Shown piece after piece: positions 3,637 through 35,622 of a stretch of DNA of 36,718 bases (within the stretch, counting starts at the first letter, position 1; each line of letters opens with the position of its first letter). Both the position numbers and the translations under genes were made by a program. Source of the stretch: an uncultured Geobacteraceae bacterium (GTDB taxonomy: Bacteria > Desulfobacterota > Desulfuromonadia > Geobacterales > Pseudopelobacteraceae); NCBI GenBank assembly GCA_903845365.1, contig CAIMXI010000097.1:1-36718 (forward strand), written 5' to 3'. Under the pieces are notes generated by a model that saw only the letters and a list, made by a program, of their open reading frames with translations, was not told the origin of the DNA and did not search any database.

Positions 3637-5952
3637 ATGCCGCACGCCATTATCGAAATACCTGCCAAATTACCGCTTTTCACCCAGAAAGAAACCGTTG
3701 TTTTTCCGTATATGCTCCTCCCTTTATACGTTGGCGAGAAAGATATCGCTACTTTCCGCGTGGCCGAGAGGTGTGAAAATTATGTAGTCCTTTCTTTTGA
3801 ACGCCCCGAAGATCCAAAAAGTGACTATCCAAGCGGTAGGAGCGAAATTGGCACACTCTGCAAGGTCAATCAGATCAAAAGGCTCGATGACGGCCGTTAC
3901 AAAGTTTCATTGGAAGGGGTTACCAGGCTGAGGATTATTGATACCGAGCCTGTCGGTGGTTTGACTTGGGCTCATTGCGAAATTGTACGGGAGTTTGTTG
4001 AAAAAAATCTTGTCTCGGACGCGCTAGTTCAAAGCCTGAATGCTCTTTTGAAAATTGCTCTATCGCACGGGAAACCGCTGCCTGAAGATATTCTGAAGAT
4101 GATTGACTACATCGATAACCCTGCCCGCCTCTCCGATCTCGTGGCGCTGTACGTGAATCTGCCGGCGACCGATCTGCAGGAGCTGCTGGAGACGACTGAT
4201 CCGCTGGATCGCCTGAAAAAGGTCTATGTGCATCTGACTAACGAAGTACAACGGATGCAGATAAAGAACGAGGTGGCTGGTGAAGTTACCAAGCGGGTGG
4301 GTAAGAACCAGAAAGAATATATTCTCCGCGAGCAGATGAAGCATATTCAGGAAGAGTTGGGGGAAGAAGACCCACGCTCGGCCGATATGAACGAGCTGCG
4401 CAAAAAGATCGAAGAGGCGGGCCTTCCGGAAGATATTAAAAAAATTGCCGACAAGGAGTTGAAACGCCTGGAGCGGATCAATCAGGCTTCGCCCGAATAC
4501 ACAGTTGCGCGGACATATCTCGATTATCTCGCCGGTATGCCCTGGAACATCAGTACGCCCGACTCTCTTGACATGGTACGGGCTGAGGAGATTCTCAACG
4601 AAGAACATTACAATCTGAAAAAAGTCAAGGAGCGCATCCTTGAGTTTTTGGCCGTACGTTCACTCAAAGAGAATATGAAGGGGCCGGTGCTCTGTTTTGT
4701 CGGCCCTCCAGGAGTTGGCAAGACGTCGCTCGGCAAGTCCATAGCCCGTTCGATGGGGCGTAAATTTGTGCGCATTTCATTGGGTGGCGTCAGGGATGAA
4801 GCCGAAATTCGTGGCCACCGCCGTACCTATATCGGGGCTCTGCCGGGGCGCATAATCAAAGAGCTGTACCGCTGCGGCGCCAACAACCCGATCTTCATGC
4901 TCGATGAAATCGACAAGCTCGGCAATGACTTCCGTGGCGATCCGGCCAGCGCGCTCTTGGAGGTGCTTGATCCTGAGCAGAATTTCAGCTTCAACGACCA
5001 TTACCTCGACGTTGCCTTTGACCTGTCAAAAGTTATGTTCATTACCACCGCCAACCAGCTTGATACCATCCCCGGCCCGCTTAAGGATCGCATGGAAGTC
5101 ATTCGTCTGGCCGGCTACAGCAGTCAGGAAAAACTGCAGATTGCCAAAGATTTTATTGTACGGCGCGAGTTGGAGGAGAACGGCCTGACAGACCGGGGAC
5201 TCACTTTTTCTGACGAAGCTCTGGAGAAAGTGATCGTCGACTACACCCGCGAGGCTGGCGTACGTGGTATGCAGCGCACGGTTGCTTCGATCTGCCGCAA
5301 GGTGGCCAAGGAGATCACCCAGCATAAATCTCCGAGGGGCTGCATTACCGCAGAAGCGGTGGCGGAACTGCTCGGACCAAAAAAATTCCATAACGAAGTT
5401 GCAGCCGAGCATGACCGCATCGGTGTAGCAACCGGACTTGCCTGGACTGAGTCCGGCGGTGATATCCTCTTCATCGAGGTAACCTCAATGCCGGGAAAAG
5501 CAGAGCTGATCCTGACCGGCTCGTTGGGCGACGTCATGAAGGAATCTGCCAGGGCTGCACTCTCCTACATCGAGGCGCACGCCGATGAATTCGGTATCAA
5601 GCCGGAGGCCTTTGAAAACCGCACCATTCACATTCACGTCCCATCCGGCGCCATTCCCAAAGATGGCCCTTCAGCAGGCATTACCATGGTTACGGCGCTG
5701 GTTTCGCTCCTGACAGGAAAACCGGCGCGGCGTAATGTCGCCATGACCGGTGAGATTACCTTGACCGGTCGGGTTATGGCGATTGGCGGCTTGAAAGAAA
5801 AAGTACTGGCGGCGCATCGTGCGGGAGTCAGCACGGTAGTAGCGCCGGAGCGCAATCGTGACGATCTGGAAGATATTCCGGAGAATGTCCGCAATGATCT
5901 GCAGTTCATCTTTGTCACTGAGGCGGAAGAAGCGCTGGCTGTGGCTTTGTAA
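3637..5952 (+). CDS. lon: ATP-dependent protease Lon
   Basis: This is a 771-residue cytoplasmic AAA+ protease that degrades misfolded and regulatory proteins. An N-terminal substrate-recognition domain (residues about 10-205) and a coiled-coil linker precede the AAA+ module, with Walker A GPPGVGKTS from residue 356 and Walker B IFMLDEIDK. The C-terminal protease domain has the Ser-Lys dyad: S679 in PKDGPSAG and K722 in GGLKEK. I start at the ATG at 3637, behind an AGAGG site. An in-frame ATG 57 nt upstream lacks a ribosome binding site. With the 3637 start the catalytic residues take the same numbers as in E. coli Lon. mlaE follows after 6 nt. Confidence 0.95.
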   Translation: MPHAIIEIPAKLPLFTQKETVVFPYMLLPLYVGEKDIATFRVAERCENYVVLSFERPEDPKSDYPSGRSEIGTLCKVNQIKRLDDGRYKVSLEGVTRLRIIDTEPVGGLTWAHCEIVREFVEKNLVSDALVQSLNALLKIALSHGKPLPEDILKMIDYIDNPARLSDLVALYVNLPATDLQELLETTDPLDRLKKVYVHLTNEVQRMQIKNEVAGEVTKRVGKNQKEYILREQMKHIQEELGEEDPRSADMNELRKKIEEAGLPEDIKKIADKELKRLERINQASPEYTVARTYLDYLAGMPWNISTPDSLDMVRAEEILNEEHYNLKKVKERILEFLAVRSLKENMKGPVLCFVGPPGVGKTSLGKSIARSMGRKFVRISLGGVRDEAEIRGHRRTYIGALPGRIIKELYRCGANNPIFMLDEIDKLGNDFRGDPASALLEVLDPEQNFSFNDHYLDVAFDLSKVMFITTANQLDTIPGPLKDRMEVIRLAGYSSQEKLQIAKDFIVRRELEENGLTDRGLTFSDEALEKVIVDYTREAGVRGMQRTVASICRKVAKEITQHKSPRGCITAEAVAELLGPKKFHNEVAAEHDRIGVATGLAWTESGGDILFIEVTSMPGKAELILTGSLGDVMKESARAALSYIEAHADEFGIKPEAFENRTIHIHVPSGAIPKDGPSAGITMVTALVSLLTGKPARRNVAMTGEITLTGRVMAIGGLKEKVLAAHRAGVSTVVAPERNRDDLEDIPENVRNDLQFIFVTEAEEALAVAL

Positions 5953-5958
5953 TCCGGA

Positions 5959-6732
5959 ATGAATGTTGCGGCTATAGATAAAATTCTGCTGATTTTCTTC
6001 CACGAGCTGCAGAGCTATTTCACCCTGGCGGGGCGCACTTTTGTGCGAATTTTCCGTCGTCCCTTCTATTATCGAGAATGTGCCATCCAATTTGACACCC
6101 TGGGATTTTCCTCACTCTTCATCTGCACACTGACCGGACTCTTCTCCGGCATGGTCATGGCGCTGCAGTCACTGATTCAACTGAAACCGTTTGCGGCAAC
6201 CAGTTATGTCGGCGGCATGGTGGCGGTAACCATGATCAAGGAGCTGGGGCCGGTGTTGGCTGCTCTGATGGTCGCGGGACGGGTCGGTTCCGCCATTACA
6301 GCCGAACTCGGAACAATGGTGGTAACCGAGCAGGTTGATGCCATGCGGGTTGAAGGTACCGATATTCTCAAACGTCTGGTTGTTCCCAGGCTTTTGGCGA
6401 TGCTTGTTGCCCTGCCGCTCCTGACAATCGTGACGGATATGGTCTCAGTCTTTGGCGGCTATATAATGGCATCCGGCTATAGCATCAGCCCGCTCTTGTA
6501 CATCAGCGGACTCCCCCAGTTCATGTTGTTTCAGGATCTGATCGAAGGAGTGGTTAAGCCGGCTTTTTTTGGGGTGATTATCGCCATAACCGCCTGCTAC
6601 GTGGGGCTTAACACGAAAGGTGGCGCAGCCGGGGTGGGGGCTGCCGCCAAGCAGGCGGTGGTGCTCTCTTCAGTACTTATTCTGGTGAGTGATTTTTTTA
6701 TGGCCAAAATTTTTCTCGTGTTCAGAGGGTAA
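5959..6732 (+). CDS. MlaE/YrbE-family ABC transporter permease
   Basis: This 257-residue inner-membrane protein has about five hydrophobic segments and the MlaE family core: GLFSGMVMALQS, IKELGPVLAALMVAGRVGSA and ITAELGTMVVTEQVDAM. MlaE permeases work with the MlaF ATPase and the MlaD substrate-binding protein to move phospholipids or other lipids between the membranes. The gene starts 6 nt after lon, probably as one transcript. The expected mlaF and mlaD genes are not here: only a weak ORF follows, then hisF. The partners must be elsewhere, or this copy is orphaned. Family assignment is strong; substrate is unknown. Confidence 0.9.
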   Translation: MNVAAIDKILLIFFHELQSYFTLAGRTFVRIFRRPFYYRECAIQFDTLGFSSLFICTLTGLFSGMVMALQSLIQLKPFAATSYVGGMVAVTMIKELGPVLAALMVAGRVGSAITAELGTMVVTEQVDAMRVEGTDILKRLVVPRLLAMLVALPLLTIVTDMVSVFGGYIMASGYSISPLLYISGLPQFMLFQDLIEGVVKPAFFGVIIAITACYVGLNTKGGAAGVGAAAKQAVVLSSVLILVSDFFMAKIFLVFRG

Positions 6733-32533: not shown

Positions 32534-33250
32534 ATGTTCAAGCAGGTAAAACAGAGTAAGGCATATCAGGATGTTGTTGACCAGATCCAGGAAGCGATCA
32601 TAGCCGGAACCTTGAAAGCCGGCAATCTGCTTCCGGCGGAGCGCGAACTGAAGGAGCGGTTCGGGGTCAGTCGCGGTACGCTGCGTGAGGCGTTGCGGGT
32701 GCTGGAACAGAAGGGGTTGATTGAAATCAGGACCGGCGTAACCGGCGGTTCGATGGTGCGCGAGGTCAATAGCGATACGCTCAGTGATAATCTGGGGCTG
32801 TTGATCAGGAATTGCGCCGTTTCCCTGAAAGATCTCGCCGAGTTTCGTGAAGAGATGGAGGGTGGTGTGGCTGCTCTGGCGGCACAGCGGGCCGGAGAGA
32901 GTGATATGGCTTTGTTGAATGATCTTCTCGCCGAAGCCGAAGCGAACCTGAAAAAGGGGCGCACGGGATGGGACGCTTTTATCCGCACCGACGAACAGGT
33001 GCATCTTGCCTTGGCACGGATGAGCGGTAATCTGCTCTTTCTGACGGTTCTGCAGAGTCTGTACGTCAATATTCATACGTACTATGAAAAATTTCTACCG
33101 CGCGACAAGGCGCTGTTGCAGGAGAATCTTTCCGATCTGTGCTCTATAGTGGCGGCGATAACCGCACGCGATTCGGCAAAGGCGCGGGATGCCGCGCAGT
33201 CTCATGTCAGGCGTTTCAACGGTTATATGGAGCAGAAAGGGGCGGAGTAG
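32534..33250 (+). CDS. FadR-subfamily GntR regulator, likely proline-catabolism repressor
   Basis: This 238-residue regulator has an N-terminal winged helix (residues 10-75: YQDVVDQIQEAIIAGTLKAG, LLPAERELKERFGVSRGTLR, EALRVLEQKGLIEIRTG). A C-terminal FCD ligand-binding helical domain follows (LAEFREEMEGGVAALAAQRA; the ligand histidines could include those of DEQVHLALARMSGN and the late AAQSHVRRF). I start at the ATG at 32534 after GGGG; an upstream in-frame start would run through the promoter. Its position and the palindrome strongly suggest that it controls putA. The inducer, perhaps proline or a derivative, is a guess. Confidence 0.88.
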   Translation: MFKQVKQSKAYQDVVDQIQEAIIAGTLKAGNLLPAERELKERFGVSRGTLREALRVLEQKGLIEIRTGVTGGSMVREVNSDTLSDNLGLLIRNCAVSLKDLAEFREEMEGGVAALAAQRAGESDMALLNDLLAEAEANLKKGRTGWDAFIRTDEQVHLALARMSGNLLFLTVLQSLYVNIHTYYEKFLPRDKALLQENLSDLCSIVAAITARDSAKARDAAQSHVRRFNGYMEQKGAE

Positions 33251-33271
33251 GTGTTACTGTACTGCTGACTG

Positions 33272-34618
33272 TCACGACTTGGTCCCCTCAATCCAGTCCA
33301 TCAGCTTCTGCCGCAACAACTCTTTTGATGGAAGATACAGTGAGTATTCGCGTGCATGGATATTGGCCTCCGGCGGTAGAGTAAGCTCGACGATGGCATC
33401 TTTTTTCCGTTTGCAAAGCAGTATGCCAATGGTGGCGTTTTCATCGGGAGTCTTTACGAAGCGGTCAAAGTAGTTCACATACATCTGCATCTGCCCGAGA
33501 TCCTGATGTTTGAGTTTGTCGAGTTTGATGTCAATCAGCACGTAACAGCGCAGCAAACGGTTGTAAAAGACGAGATCAACGAAAAAATGGTCTTCATCGA
33601 AGGTGAAGCGTTTCTGCCTTGCCTCAAACAGAAAGCCCTTCCCAAGTTCGAGCAGGAACTGTTCAAGTTGATCAATGATAGCTGTTTCCATATCGGATTC
33701 GGAGTAGCCGGTTTTTTCGTCAAGTCCGAGGAATTCAAGAACGTACGGCTCTTTCAGGATGTCTGCCGGTTTGACGATGATTTGTCCTTCGTTGGCAAAT
33801 TGTCGGATTTCATCCTTGTCTTTGCTGAGTGCGAGGCGTTCATAGAGGCATGAGGAAACCTGCCGCTTCAGTTCGCGGAAAGACCAATCTGACTGACATG
33901 ACTCAATTTCATAGAAACTGCGTTCATCCGGATTTTTGATAGTGAGGAGCAAAACGTAGTGAGACCAACTGAGCGTAAACGACTGTTTTCCGGATTGCCC
34001 AGAGACTGTCTGGACAGTCGCTAAATTATCAGACAGTGTCTGTGAAATTTCCCCCAAAGGTAATTTTTCAGACACTGTCTGAAAAATCTGGCAAGAGAAT
34101 CTGTCTTTCCATAGAAGAAAAAATTTACGCATAAGTGATAAATTTACGGGAGAAAATCCGGTTCCAAACTCCTCCGTCAACCTCGCGGAAAGCTCTTTTA
34201 GCAACTCTTTCCCATATTCCGCCCGTTTTTCACCTTTCTGCTGATGTTCAATAATGCGCCGTCCAATCTCGTAGTTGGTCGTCACCTGAAGGATGTTGAC
34301 CGTAGTGGCGACAGAGTAACGCGCAGAGTGGATGAGGCTACGAAGTTCAGTGATGAGCGGTGCAAGATTACCACTATCAGAGTTGGCTGAGGCTTTGACA
34401 ACGTTTCGTGTTGTTTTTATCTTTGTCATGTCCGTTTTCCCAACTCCACCATCAGCCCCGAACGCCACCCCTTGAACTTTCCGTCCCGTATCCTTGCCGA
34501 TCTCCACACTCTGTGAACTTCCGGGAAACAGCTTACTGCGCCACTGCACCGGTATCTGCTCACCATTCTGAAGGAGGCGGATCAGTTCGCTACGTTCTTG
34601 TTCGTTTAGTGTTTGCAT
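33272..34618 (-). CDS. YhcG/DUF1016-family PDDEXK nuclease with unusual N-terminus and repeat insert
   Basis: This 448-residue protein has a DUF1016 N-terminal domain (about residues 85-260: NYEIGRRIIEHQQKGEKRAE, FGTGFSPVNLSLMRKF, SWSHYVLLLTIKNPDERSFY). The C-terminal PDDEXK nuclease domain has FLLELGKGFLFEARQKRF, then DDHFFVDLVFYNR-like and YVLIDIKLDKL segments with the D...(I)D-x-K core. AGGA four bases before the ATG at 34618 supports the long form. The first 45 residues (LIRLLQNGEQIPVQWRSKLF) resemble the N-terminus of some restriction-system methyltransferases rather than YhcG, and an internal ATG at 34429 would give the usual length. A three-unit QTVS/QTLS repeat sits near residues 180-210. 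No restriction genes are adjacent. Confidence 0.88.
   Translation of the reverse strand: MQTLNEQERSELIRLLQNGEQIPVQWRSKLFPGSSQSVEIGKDTGRKVQGVAFGADGGVGKTDMTKIKTTRNVVKASANSDSGNLAPLITELRSLIHSARYSVATTVNILQVTTNYEIGRRIIEHQQKGEKRAEYGKELLKELSARLTEEFGTGFSPVNLSLMRKFFLLWKDRFSCQIFQTVSEKLPLGEISQTLSDNLATVQTVSGQSGKQSFTLSWSHYVLLLTIKNPDERSFYEIESCQSDWSFRELKRQVSSCLYERLALSKDKDEIRQFANEGQIIVKPADILKEPYVLEFLGLDEKTGYSESDMETAIIDQLEQFLLELGKGFLFEARQKRFTFDEDHFFVDLVFYNRLLRCYVLIDIKLDKLKHQDLGQMQMYVNYFDRFVKTPDENATIGILLCKRKKDAIVELTLPPEANIHAREYSLYLPSKELLRQKLMDWIEGTKS
34000..34081. repeat. Cluster of three 13-bp palindromic repeats inside yhcG
   Basis: CAGAGACTGTCTG (34000-34012), CAGACAGTGTCTG (34030-34042) and CAGACACTGTCTG (34069-34081) recur at 30- and 39-bp intervals. 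The second and third are exact reverse complements of each other, and each is itself palindromic around its central base. GACTGTC/GACAGTC (34004-34010 and 34013-34019) adds a further inverted pair. The intervals are multiples of three, so the reading frame is kept and each copy encodes QTVS or QTLS. Confidence 0.8.
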
Positions 34619-34692
34619 GGTGTCCTGTATTTAAAGCATGGATCAAGTGGAGCTGTCTTACCATATATGGTCTGCTTAATCCACCGGTAACG

Positions 34693-35622
34693 CTAAAGCA
34701 GGTTAGCGGCATTCTGCCGGACAGCCCGGACTCTCCGCACGGCATCAAACGAATAGCAGCAGAGTCCGGCCCAGATAAGGAGAAAACAGATAAGGTGCGC
34801 CTGTGTGAACGGTTCCCTGTAGAGCAGGACGGCAAGGAGGAAGTGCATTGTGGGGGTAATATACTGGAGAAAACCGATAGTAGCGAGGCGCAGGCGTCGG
34901 GCAGCCGAGGCAAAGAGCAGCAGCGGTACTGAGGTTGCAACTCCGGCAAACACGAGAAATACATTTATTTGCAGGGCCTGCCCGGGGAAGCTGCCGGTAC
35001 CGTTCAGAGTAACATACACAAGATATCCAAGTGCAAAAGGCGAGAGGAGCAACGTCTCCACGGTCAGCCCGGTGATGGAGTCAACTGTGACGACCTTGCG
35101 AAACAGCCCGTAGGAACCAAACGTAAATGCGAGTATCAGTGAAACCCAGGGAAAACGACCGTAATTAACGGTCAGCAGCACAACCCCGGCTGCTGCCAGA
35201 ATAAGACTGATACTCTGAAGACGACTAAGACGTTCCTTTAAAAAAATAACACCGAGCAGGACGCTGACAAATGGCGTGATGAAATAGCCAAGACTTGACT
35301 GGATGACCTGGGAATGGGCAATCGCAATTATGAAAACCAGCCAGTTCGTCGCAATCAGAAGCGCAGATGAGATGAGAAGCACGACAACACGCCTGTCACG
35401 AAATGCCCCAGCTACAACACTCCATTTACCGCGCCATCCAAGTATCAGAGAGAGAAACAGCACCGACCAGACAATACGGTGACTGACAACCTGCAAGGCC
35501 GGGACAGATGTCAGTGCTTTAAAATAGACCGGAAAAAAGCCCCAGATCAGATATGCCGTTATGCCATAGCCAAGTCCTGTTGCAGCATCTTTGTGCGTAT
35601 TCTTCGTTTCTTGTTCGATCAT
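34693..35622 (-). CDS. rarD: RarD-type EamA/DMT family transporter
   Basis: This 309-residue inner-membrane protein has about ten membrane segments. The RarD start is clear (GLGYGITAYLIWGFFPVYFK, ALTSVPALQVVSHRIVWS), with NWLVFIIAIAHSQVIQSSLGYFI and FLQYITPTMHFLLAVLLYREPF further on. RarD proteins are drug/metabolite superfamily exporters of uncertain substrate. The ATG overlaps the upstream transporter stop by 4 nt, so the two are co-translated. The 70 nt after it before yhcG contain CCATATATGG at 34661-34670 and nothing else clear. Confidence 0.9.
   Translation of the reverse strand: MIEQETKNTHKDAATGLGYGITAYLIWGFFPVYFKALTSVPALQVVSHRIVWSVLFLSLILGWRGKWSVVAGAFRDRRVVVLLISSALLIATNWLVFIIAIAHSQVIQSSLGYFITPFVSVLLGVIFLKERLSRLQSISLILAAAGVVLLTVNYGRFPWVSLILAFTFGSYGLFRKVVTVDSITGLTVETLLLSPFALGYLVYVTLNGTGSFPGQALQINVFLVFAGVATSVPLLLFASAARRLRLATIGFLQYITPTMHFLLAVLLYREPFTQAHLICFLLIWAGLCCYSFDAVRRVRAVRQNAANLL

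Follow-up and report, generated by a model that had tools for sequence, protein, structure and literature searches.

The window analysed here, a stretch of 36,718 bp from an uncultured Geobacteraceae bacterium, contains a gene of the DUF1016/YhcG family. Its product is matched by Pfam PF17761 (132 bits) and then PF06250 (171.6 bits), with cut-offs of 32.8 and 32.5, and its other Pfam match is a sub-threshold HSDR_N_2 alone. NCBIfam gives no match for this protein. PADLOC takes the gene as the phage-defence candidate PDC-S02, with one further match to a generic PD-DExK model, and the PHROG match is to a family of unknown function. In the nuclease domain, E307, E324, D348 and K365 are invariant in a 41-sequence alignment, and they are probably catalytic, judging from the E-D-E(I/L/V)K motif in the accessible part of PMC1189080. 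Incidentally, two short adjacent open reading frames on the minus strand at 440-1121 resemble a HEPN/nucleotidyltransferase pair, as recognised by eye.

Three near-identical 13-bp palindromes at intervals divisible by three had been reported in this gene by an earlier note, and we confirm them. The copy at 34000-34012, CAGAGACTGTCTG, has one mismatch to the pattern CAGACANTGTCTG. Those at 34030-34042, CAGACAGTGTCTG, and 34069-34081, CAGACACTGTCTG, are exact and, as the note had said, reverse complements of each other. The palindromes are 30 and 39 bp apart and encode QTVS, QTLS and QTVS. The exact 13-mer occurs at two sites in the 5.5-Mb assembly, both in this gene, and the pattern read backwards occurs once. 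When up to 3 mismatches are allowed, the whole window has 15 matches, against 14.2 expected by chance, so that exactness, symmetry and clustering are what stand out.

The symmetry extends beyond the 13-mer. Nowhere else in the window does an odd palindrome reach 10 of 11 pairs (d2-d12), as the one at 34063-34087 does; it has no second copy at up to 3 mismatches, and none occurs in 100 shuffles. Units 2 and 3 have decayed outside the core. The element exceeds the 13-mer, CAGAC is just one of its many cores, and it is carried by the gene family as a whole. Even this genome has three DUF1016 genes (L003, L004 and L005) with three different cores, which argues against a single shared host factor reading the sequence.

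Table 1 Features of the DUF1016/YhcG gene, in window coordinates.
Feature	Position	Strand	Description and basis
DUF1016/YhcG gene	33272..34618	-	448 codons; ORF list, Pfam, PADLOC (best E 7.1e-136)
DUF1016_N domain, modestly ParB-HTH-like as a family, split by palindrome-coded loop	33836..34345	-	residues 92-261; Pfam
YhcG_C PD-(D/E)XK nuclease domain	33302..33763	-	residues 286-439; Pfam and fold match
DNA of low-confidence, probably disordered loop	33989..34084	-	residues 179-210; AlphaFold2 pLDDT
Unit 1, IFQTVSEK	34063..34087	.	perfect 25-bp palindrome ATTTTTCAGACACTGTCTGAAAAAT
Unit 2, ISQTLSDN	34024..34048	.	exact 13-bp core 34030-34042; arms partly decayed, 8/11 pairs
Unit 3, VQTVSGQ	33994..34018	.	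core 34000-34012, one mismatch; 8/11 pairs

Across the family, the linker between the helix ending '..RxFY' and the 'LSWSHY' helix, cut out with profile HMMs at these bounds, contains in most genes at least one in-frame palindrome of about 25-29 bp. The layout is AATT-nnn-core5-NNN-core5'-nnn'-AATT, eight codons whose commonest peptide is I-X-Q-T-V/L-S-Y-Z. Cores and arms vary by gene, as units encode, for example, IRKSVISE, ILSQPVIE, IVPQVVAQ, IVRSVTEQ, KLYALRRE, ISYAARSQ and ILQQAVAK. Genes with short linkers have units such as IRETLSLE, IVVTLSRQ, ILHTLCAK and FVQQAAAQ, and the palindrome centre is five codons ahead of the 'SW' of LSWSHY in 42 of their 45 counted units. IRDALRHE is a further encoded peptide; the peptides can be wholly unlike between genes and the DNA is still palindromic. 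In our sample, a gene has roughly 1-6 units, most commonly spaced by 36, 39 or 48 bp without helical phasing, where counts and spacings include some symmetry axes lying between units. Among the 140 genes with units, CAGAC is the commonest core in 73, and 65 have no unit with CAGAC as left core. Thus, the earlier suggestion of a family-wide QTVS/QTLS element holds for the element but not for the peptide, QTVS/QTLS with CAGACAnTGTCTG being merely the commonest type. In one stretch (L115), an open frame from 1392 on the plus strand contains at about codon 87 a second palindrome, ATTGTCGTGACGCTGTCGCGACAAT, near-identical to the gene's own unit.

The frequency of the element was measured with genes collected blind to palindromes, by Pfam PF17761 searches and by protein searches of viral contigs and of the genus. 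Among the 104 distinct blind genes, at least 8 of 11 pairs were found in 101, at least 9 in 86, at least 10 in 63 and all 11 in 38. The corresponding numbers for 1302 control windows of equal size from the same genes were 164, 30, 9 and 3. The centre was at codon position 1 in 85 of the 86 genes with at least 9 pairs, whereas 18 of the 104 fell below 9. Nine pairs were reached by 38 of 52 short-linker blind genes and by 22 of 26 genes in the genus set, the window gene included. When 27 long linkers were randomly recoded with synonymous codons at their own codon usage, the mean best score was 6.98, compared with 9.96 observed. Recoding gave p<0.05 (at a resolution of 1/200) for 26 of the 27, and codon permutation did so for 25.

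Covariation was examined in 76 ungapped units, picked at 8 or more of 11 pairs and freed of duplicates. Pairing across d2-d9 (eight pairs) holds in 94.2% of cells, compared with 48.0% after shuffling. Cells changed on both sides number 267, against 83.5 in shuffles, and those changed on one side number 3. The covariation score is 1.058, against 0.200 ± 0.020 shuffled, and it is reduced to 0.07-0.22 when the partner is slid along. Two of the five measures, pairs with two-sided change (8) and further pair types (27), are not above shuffles. With one unit taken per gene, 70 genes have 64 distinct arms and 91% complementarity, compared with 39% in 2000 shuffles, whose maximum is 47%. That arm letters vary freely and the two halves change together suggests that DNA, not just protein, is kept at this site. 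The recoding null, the blind set and covariation all place the conservation beyond codon constraint, upholding the earlier view of a coding-compatible family element at the DNA level. A fixed unit number with freely varying synonymous codons, which the same note had named as the contrary outcome, was looked for and is not the pattern found.

The palindrome consists of two layers. Core identity (d2-d6) tracks protein identity, being 0.96 at 90-100% (a bin of 9 pairs) and 0.35 at 20-30%. Identity of the outer arms (d7-d9) is down to 0.38 already at 70-80% protein identity, with complementarity of about 90%; related sequences in these comparisons are not fully independent. Units within one gene have a core identity of 0.83 versus 0.57 between genes, and an outer-arm identity of 0.43 versus 0.31. 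In some units, amino-acid pairs shift jointly, QTVS occurring beside QAVP, QAMP or QALP. When genes of 70% identity or more are compared, pair positions differ in 479 cases; compensation accounts for 197 of them, and in the other 282 at least one gene has a broken pair.

Pairs of exact CAGACANTGTCTG copies separated by 8-38 bases were sought, blind to genes, in one genome from each of 84,980 species, and 107 stretches were returned. DUF1016 sequence was detected somewhere in the fetched DNA of 99 (HMM or tblastn, E<=1e-3), among which the matches are weak in L091 (18 residues), L070 (32) and L041 (37), and kilobases away from the palindromes in L059 and L083. The other eight (L030, L039, L046, L049, L066, L067, L075 and L096) have no such sequence in the fetched DNA, and some of them look like gene remains. 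Pair spacing is divisible by three in 101 of the 107, the exceptions being L039, L046, L059, L066, L067 and L083, and in 93 no stop interrupts the QT.S frame for 20 codons to either side. The taxa include Proteobacteria, Bacteroidetes, Acidobacteria, Opitutus, Planctomycetaceae, Omnitrophota, Patescibacteria, Nitrospiraceae, Latescibacteria, Cloacimonadota and the archaeon Methanoregula. The Methanoregula stretch is L030, one of the eight, and another contig of that genome (L158) has a DUF1016 gene with two units. PF17761 itself was found in 32 of 99, 39 of 99 and 30 of 150 genomes of three phyla.

Two side observations concern palindrome clusters. In Acidobacteria, L059:84-410 and L083:1650-1870 contain 5-7 diverse CAGAC-like palindromes apart from the DUF1016 match; most of the spacings are divisible by three, and a multi-unit linker may have decayed there. 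A viral contig (L006), the one viral stretch, has a two-palindrome DUF1016-like remnant at 4711-4758 and 6033-6080, 1.3 kb apart, the second place being 94% identical over 175 bp; tblastn gave no match to DUF1016 in this stretch, and a plasmid DNA search with the remnant gave no match.

Each of 32 genomes, selected because they contain a pair, has 2-4 exact copies, most of them within DUF1016 sequence or close to it. Of 99 genomes from the phylum, 16 have an exact copy (18 copies) and 8 the backwards pattern (8 copies), so single copies in this sample are close to chance. On these counts, a dispersed mobile repeat was rejected. In 823,918 bp outside linkers, 52 generic palindromes with at least 10 of 11 pairs were found. 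Six of these share 4 nt with the gene's core on one side or both; five are within 270 bp of the open frame and one is inside a frame. Flanking copies like those of E. coli described below are therefore not general.

In Escherichia, yhcG was matched in 4417 of 5426 genomes, and its region was compared in 26 E. coli records and one E. albertii contig (L068). The allele has three units in K-12 (1128 bp), two in ETEC1732 (1089 bp) and one in O157:H7 RM8376 (1050 bp). Unit number therefore varies, as had been proposed, and here it does so in 39-bp steps. Alleles in L260 and L262 have a common frame around unit 2, with arms CTC/GAG or CGC/GCG. A non-coding palindrome 3' of yhcG has nearly constant flanks in 13 aligned strains, and its arms are CTC/GAG in L275 and CTG/CAG in the other strains.

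Truncations and lone palindromes were also observed. The yhcG match stops at query base 406, just past unit 3, in 10 of the 60 matches listed, and L259 and L266 confirm truncation just after unit 3. In L310 and E. albertii L068, an internal unit is fused to the 3' flank. Strains without yhcG have one lone perfect palindrome, AATTCGCCAGACAGTGTCTGGCGAATT, between gltD and nanQ (L264:2021 and L269:1515), and at L270:1390 the same palindrome adjoins an IS30-type insertion. Deletions ending at palindromes can arise by ordinary recombination between repeats. In two further E. coli records (L265:2501 and L268:1737), a yhcG remnant beside IS1 begins within the left arm of the third unit.

The N-terminal domain, predicted alone with a mean pLDDT of 83, was compared with known folds. 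In a structure search, the 12 best hits are all ParB/Noc DNA-binding domains with Z of 6.4-8.1, the next being 4.5, where a Z of about 8 can reflect a common helical arrangement. Foldseek against ParB/Noc is not significant alone (E 0.9-5). Pfam HTH_ParB (PF17762) matches 12 of 42 DUF1016_N segments at a permissive limit of 10 (best E 2.8e-5), and does not match the window's own segment at this limit. A ParB profile reaches at least 8 bits (whole-sequence score) in 12 of 42 members and in none of 252 shuffled or reversed controls. With hhalign, the ParB stretch LSxGHARALL..LSVRxxE is aligned to LSWSHYxxLL..WSVRELxRQ over 40 columns (E 6e-4, probability 29%). Among solved structures, a profile of the N-domain found nothing significant (best E 0.15), and phmmer found no relative of the window protein. 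DUF1016_N modestly resembles the ParB DNA-binding domain, and the above alignment places the palindrome-coded loop just ahead of the helix corresponding to 'GHARALL' in ParB.

In the AlphaFold2 model, pLDDT is below 50 at residues 179-187 and 190-210, within a loop between helices 157-174 and 218-225. A variable surface of the nuclease, suggested earlier as something the repeat could alter, is probably not the main point: the prediction for this loop is disorder, and what is conserved is the symmetry of the DNA rather than the peptide. The C-terminal part has fold matches to the Pyrococcus abyssi repair endonuclease 2vld (E 1.1e-4), which we take to be NucS, and to EndoMS 5gke (E 1.1e-3).

Palindromes in DUF1016 genes are thus secure as a DNA feature. 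For their meaning, we give a probability of about 0.5 to the following explanation from sequences and models: DUF1016 genes encode, in frame and at a fixed position, a parS-like palindromic site of their own product, most likely used for self-control. ParB proteins bind palindromic parS sites. The N-terminal domain would be a ParB/Noc-type helix-turn-helix that as a dimer reads the palindrome core, about 5 nt on either side of a 3-nt centre, and the C-terminal PD-(D/E)XK domain would be an EndoMS-like nuclease. Because the putative site lies within coding sequence, it would move with the gene in every transfer, sitting in a loop whose peptide may hardly matter. A dangerous single-gene nuclease could thereby control itself, the bound protein limiting its own transcription or holding the enzyme there. 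Extra units would be tandem gains and losses, with the palindromes doubling as deletion and recombination junctions.

We infer binding by the own protein from the near confinement of palindromes to the gene family, its close flanks or apparent remains, from core conservation tracking the protein, from different cores within one genome and from the ParB-like domain. The step with least support is that this binding serves self-control. A binding or recombination site, already suggested in the earlier note, would still be the best reading of the sequences. On the other hand, a plain dimer site leaves the free d7-d9 variation, present even within one gene at about 90% complementarity, unexplained. 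The 282 uncompensated positions out of 479, the 18 blind genes below 9/11 and the spacings without helical phase also argue against an own site, as does the modest ParB likeness (Foldseek E 0.9, hhalign 29%, no HTH_ParB match for the window domain). Moreover, operators are usually at promoters rather than in the middle of a gene.

Alternatively, the palindrome may be kept as a hairpin or cruciform substrate, a DNA stem-loop with a 3-nt loop. Its cutting or resolution by the structure-specific nuclease would drive gain and loss of units, allele conversion or gene spread; we consider this tenable but rather unlikely. Outer arms that are complementary without sequence conservation speak for it, and the mean DNA hairpin energy is -9.6 kcal/mol, against -1.5 in shuffles. 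In 247 unique units, pairing reaches 89-98% over d2-d8. At d1, which has no pair in a 3-nt loop, the figure is 79%, yet this exceeds the 65% expected from shuffling (in blind units, 64% versus 48%). The accessible part of PMC1189080 relates the YhcG nuclease domain to YraN-like Holliday-junction resolvases, in line with the EndoMS match. Escherichia adds compensated changes that are clustered and deletions that end at palindromes, although slippage or recombination between 25-27-bp repeats also predicts such deletions. Against it, core sequence is conserved relative to protein, and self-cutting should be costly. A mutational by-product, in which the core is kept and template switching in replication copies arm onto arm without selection, is a still more doubtful cause. 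In its favour, the L275 3' palindrome differs from the common form at three positions within 27 bp, of which two compensate each other, with flanks as in L262. Among 3671 matching genomes of 5426 searched, identity to the L275 stretch is at least 99% in 256, 95-99% in 3264 and lower in 151. Template switching would, however, not account for the persistence of the core throughout the family in a single site and phase, and complementarity drops to background beyond d13 instead of fading. Both layers would be accommodated if the own gene product reads the core and the outer arms have a structural or mutational origin.

The other explanations have little probability. A selfish mobile palindromic element (RPE- or REP-like) repeatedly inserting into DUF1016 genes would produce in-frame palindromic DNA in a tolerant loop, accompanied by occasional copies in flanking DNA and in what look like remains, but it is very unlikely with 2-4 exact copies in the genomes chosen for a pair, two in the window's own genome, a single phase and position, and core types that follow the protein family. 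Stable stems in coding DNA could also act as mRNA hairpins for translation or RNA decay. This is highly improbable, as mismatched cells among the 100 best units are G.T in 11 and A.C in 20, so that G.T is not favoured, and one-sided cells are nearly absent. A search of 33200-34700 with Rfam 15 gave three weak miRNA-family matches, all far under the gathering score, and the RNA hairpin was set aside. Plain protein conservation or chance has next to no credit: QT(V/L)S is indeed the commonest peptide, as CAGAC is the commonest core, but the DNA is palindromic where peptides are wholly different, and 26 of 27 long linkers beat the synonymous-recoding null.

A bolder version of the own-site explanation, possible but improbable in our estimate, is a self-addressed gene. 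The nuclease target would be written into a dispensable loop beside the DNA-reading helices, and the freely varying, mirrored arms would be the trace of repeated cutting or copying. This would make a new class of self-targeting gene, possibly defensive and possibly selfish, in bacteria and archaea; if true, enzyme specificity and target would evolve together in one reading frame. A DNA site maintained in coding sequence across wide divergence is a direct pointer to the possible role of the N-terminal domain. Protein-coding DNA would here offer a clear example of compensatory change preserving a palindrome that is otherwise hypervariable. DUF1016/YhcG is common, yet known to PADLOC merely as a phage-defence candidate.

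No description of palindromes in DUF1016/YhcG was found in titles and abstract starts of the papers listed by searches of open-licence PMC literature. The window gene belongs to the YhcG-family PD-(D/E)XK nucleases of PMC1189080, whose accessible part gives the family an N-terminal domain of about 200 residues without known structure and does not mention palindromes. Palindromic amphipathic repeat coding elements (PARCEL), as far as the accessible text of PMC2996958 goes, also have palindromic DNA in coding repeats that is variable and spread by transfer. They are 25-residue DUF285-type repeats with varying palindrome length and phase, whereas the DUF1016 palindrome has one phase, one position and one nuclease family; its units are eight codons plus spacer, and Pfam finds no DUF285-type amphipathic tandem repeats in the window protein. 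Rickettsia palindromic elements are likewise palindromic, coding-compatible inserts, but by the partial text of PMC4316617 they are about 100-150 nt long and occur in intergenic regions, RNAs and many genes, unlike the DUF1016 palindrome of about 25-29 bp in one gene family, for which no dispersal in many unrelated genes and intergenic regions was seen. REP elements, some with a dedicated RAYT transposase, are 20-40-bp palindromes that the available portion of PMC3733652 describes as tagged with GTAG/CGTC, of high copy and mostly extragenic; the DUF1016 palindrome has its few exact copies per genome, and the 76-unit consensus ends in AATT with no GTAG/CGTC tag. ParB/Noc with parS/NBS offers a modest likeness, in a helix-turn-helix that DUF1016_N resembles to some degree in predicted fold and partly in sequence, and in a short palindromic site. 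The likeness extends to a site inside the gene of the presumed binder, as the Bacillus subtilis spo0J gene contains a parS. Pfam matches of the window protein include no ParB CTPase domain, and DUF1016 differs from ParB/Noc in being fused to a nuclease and in having a site that is hypervariable, covarying and present in most members of the family.
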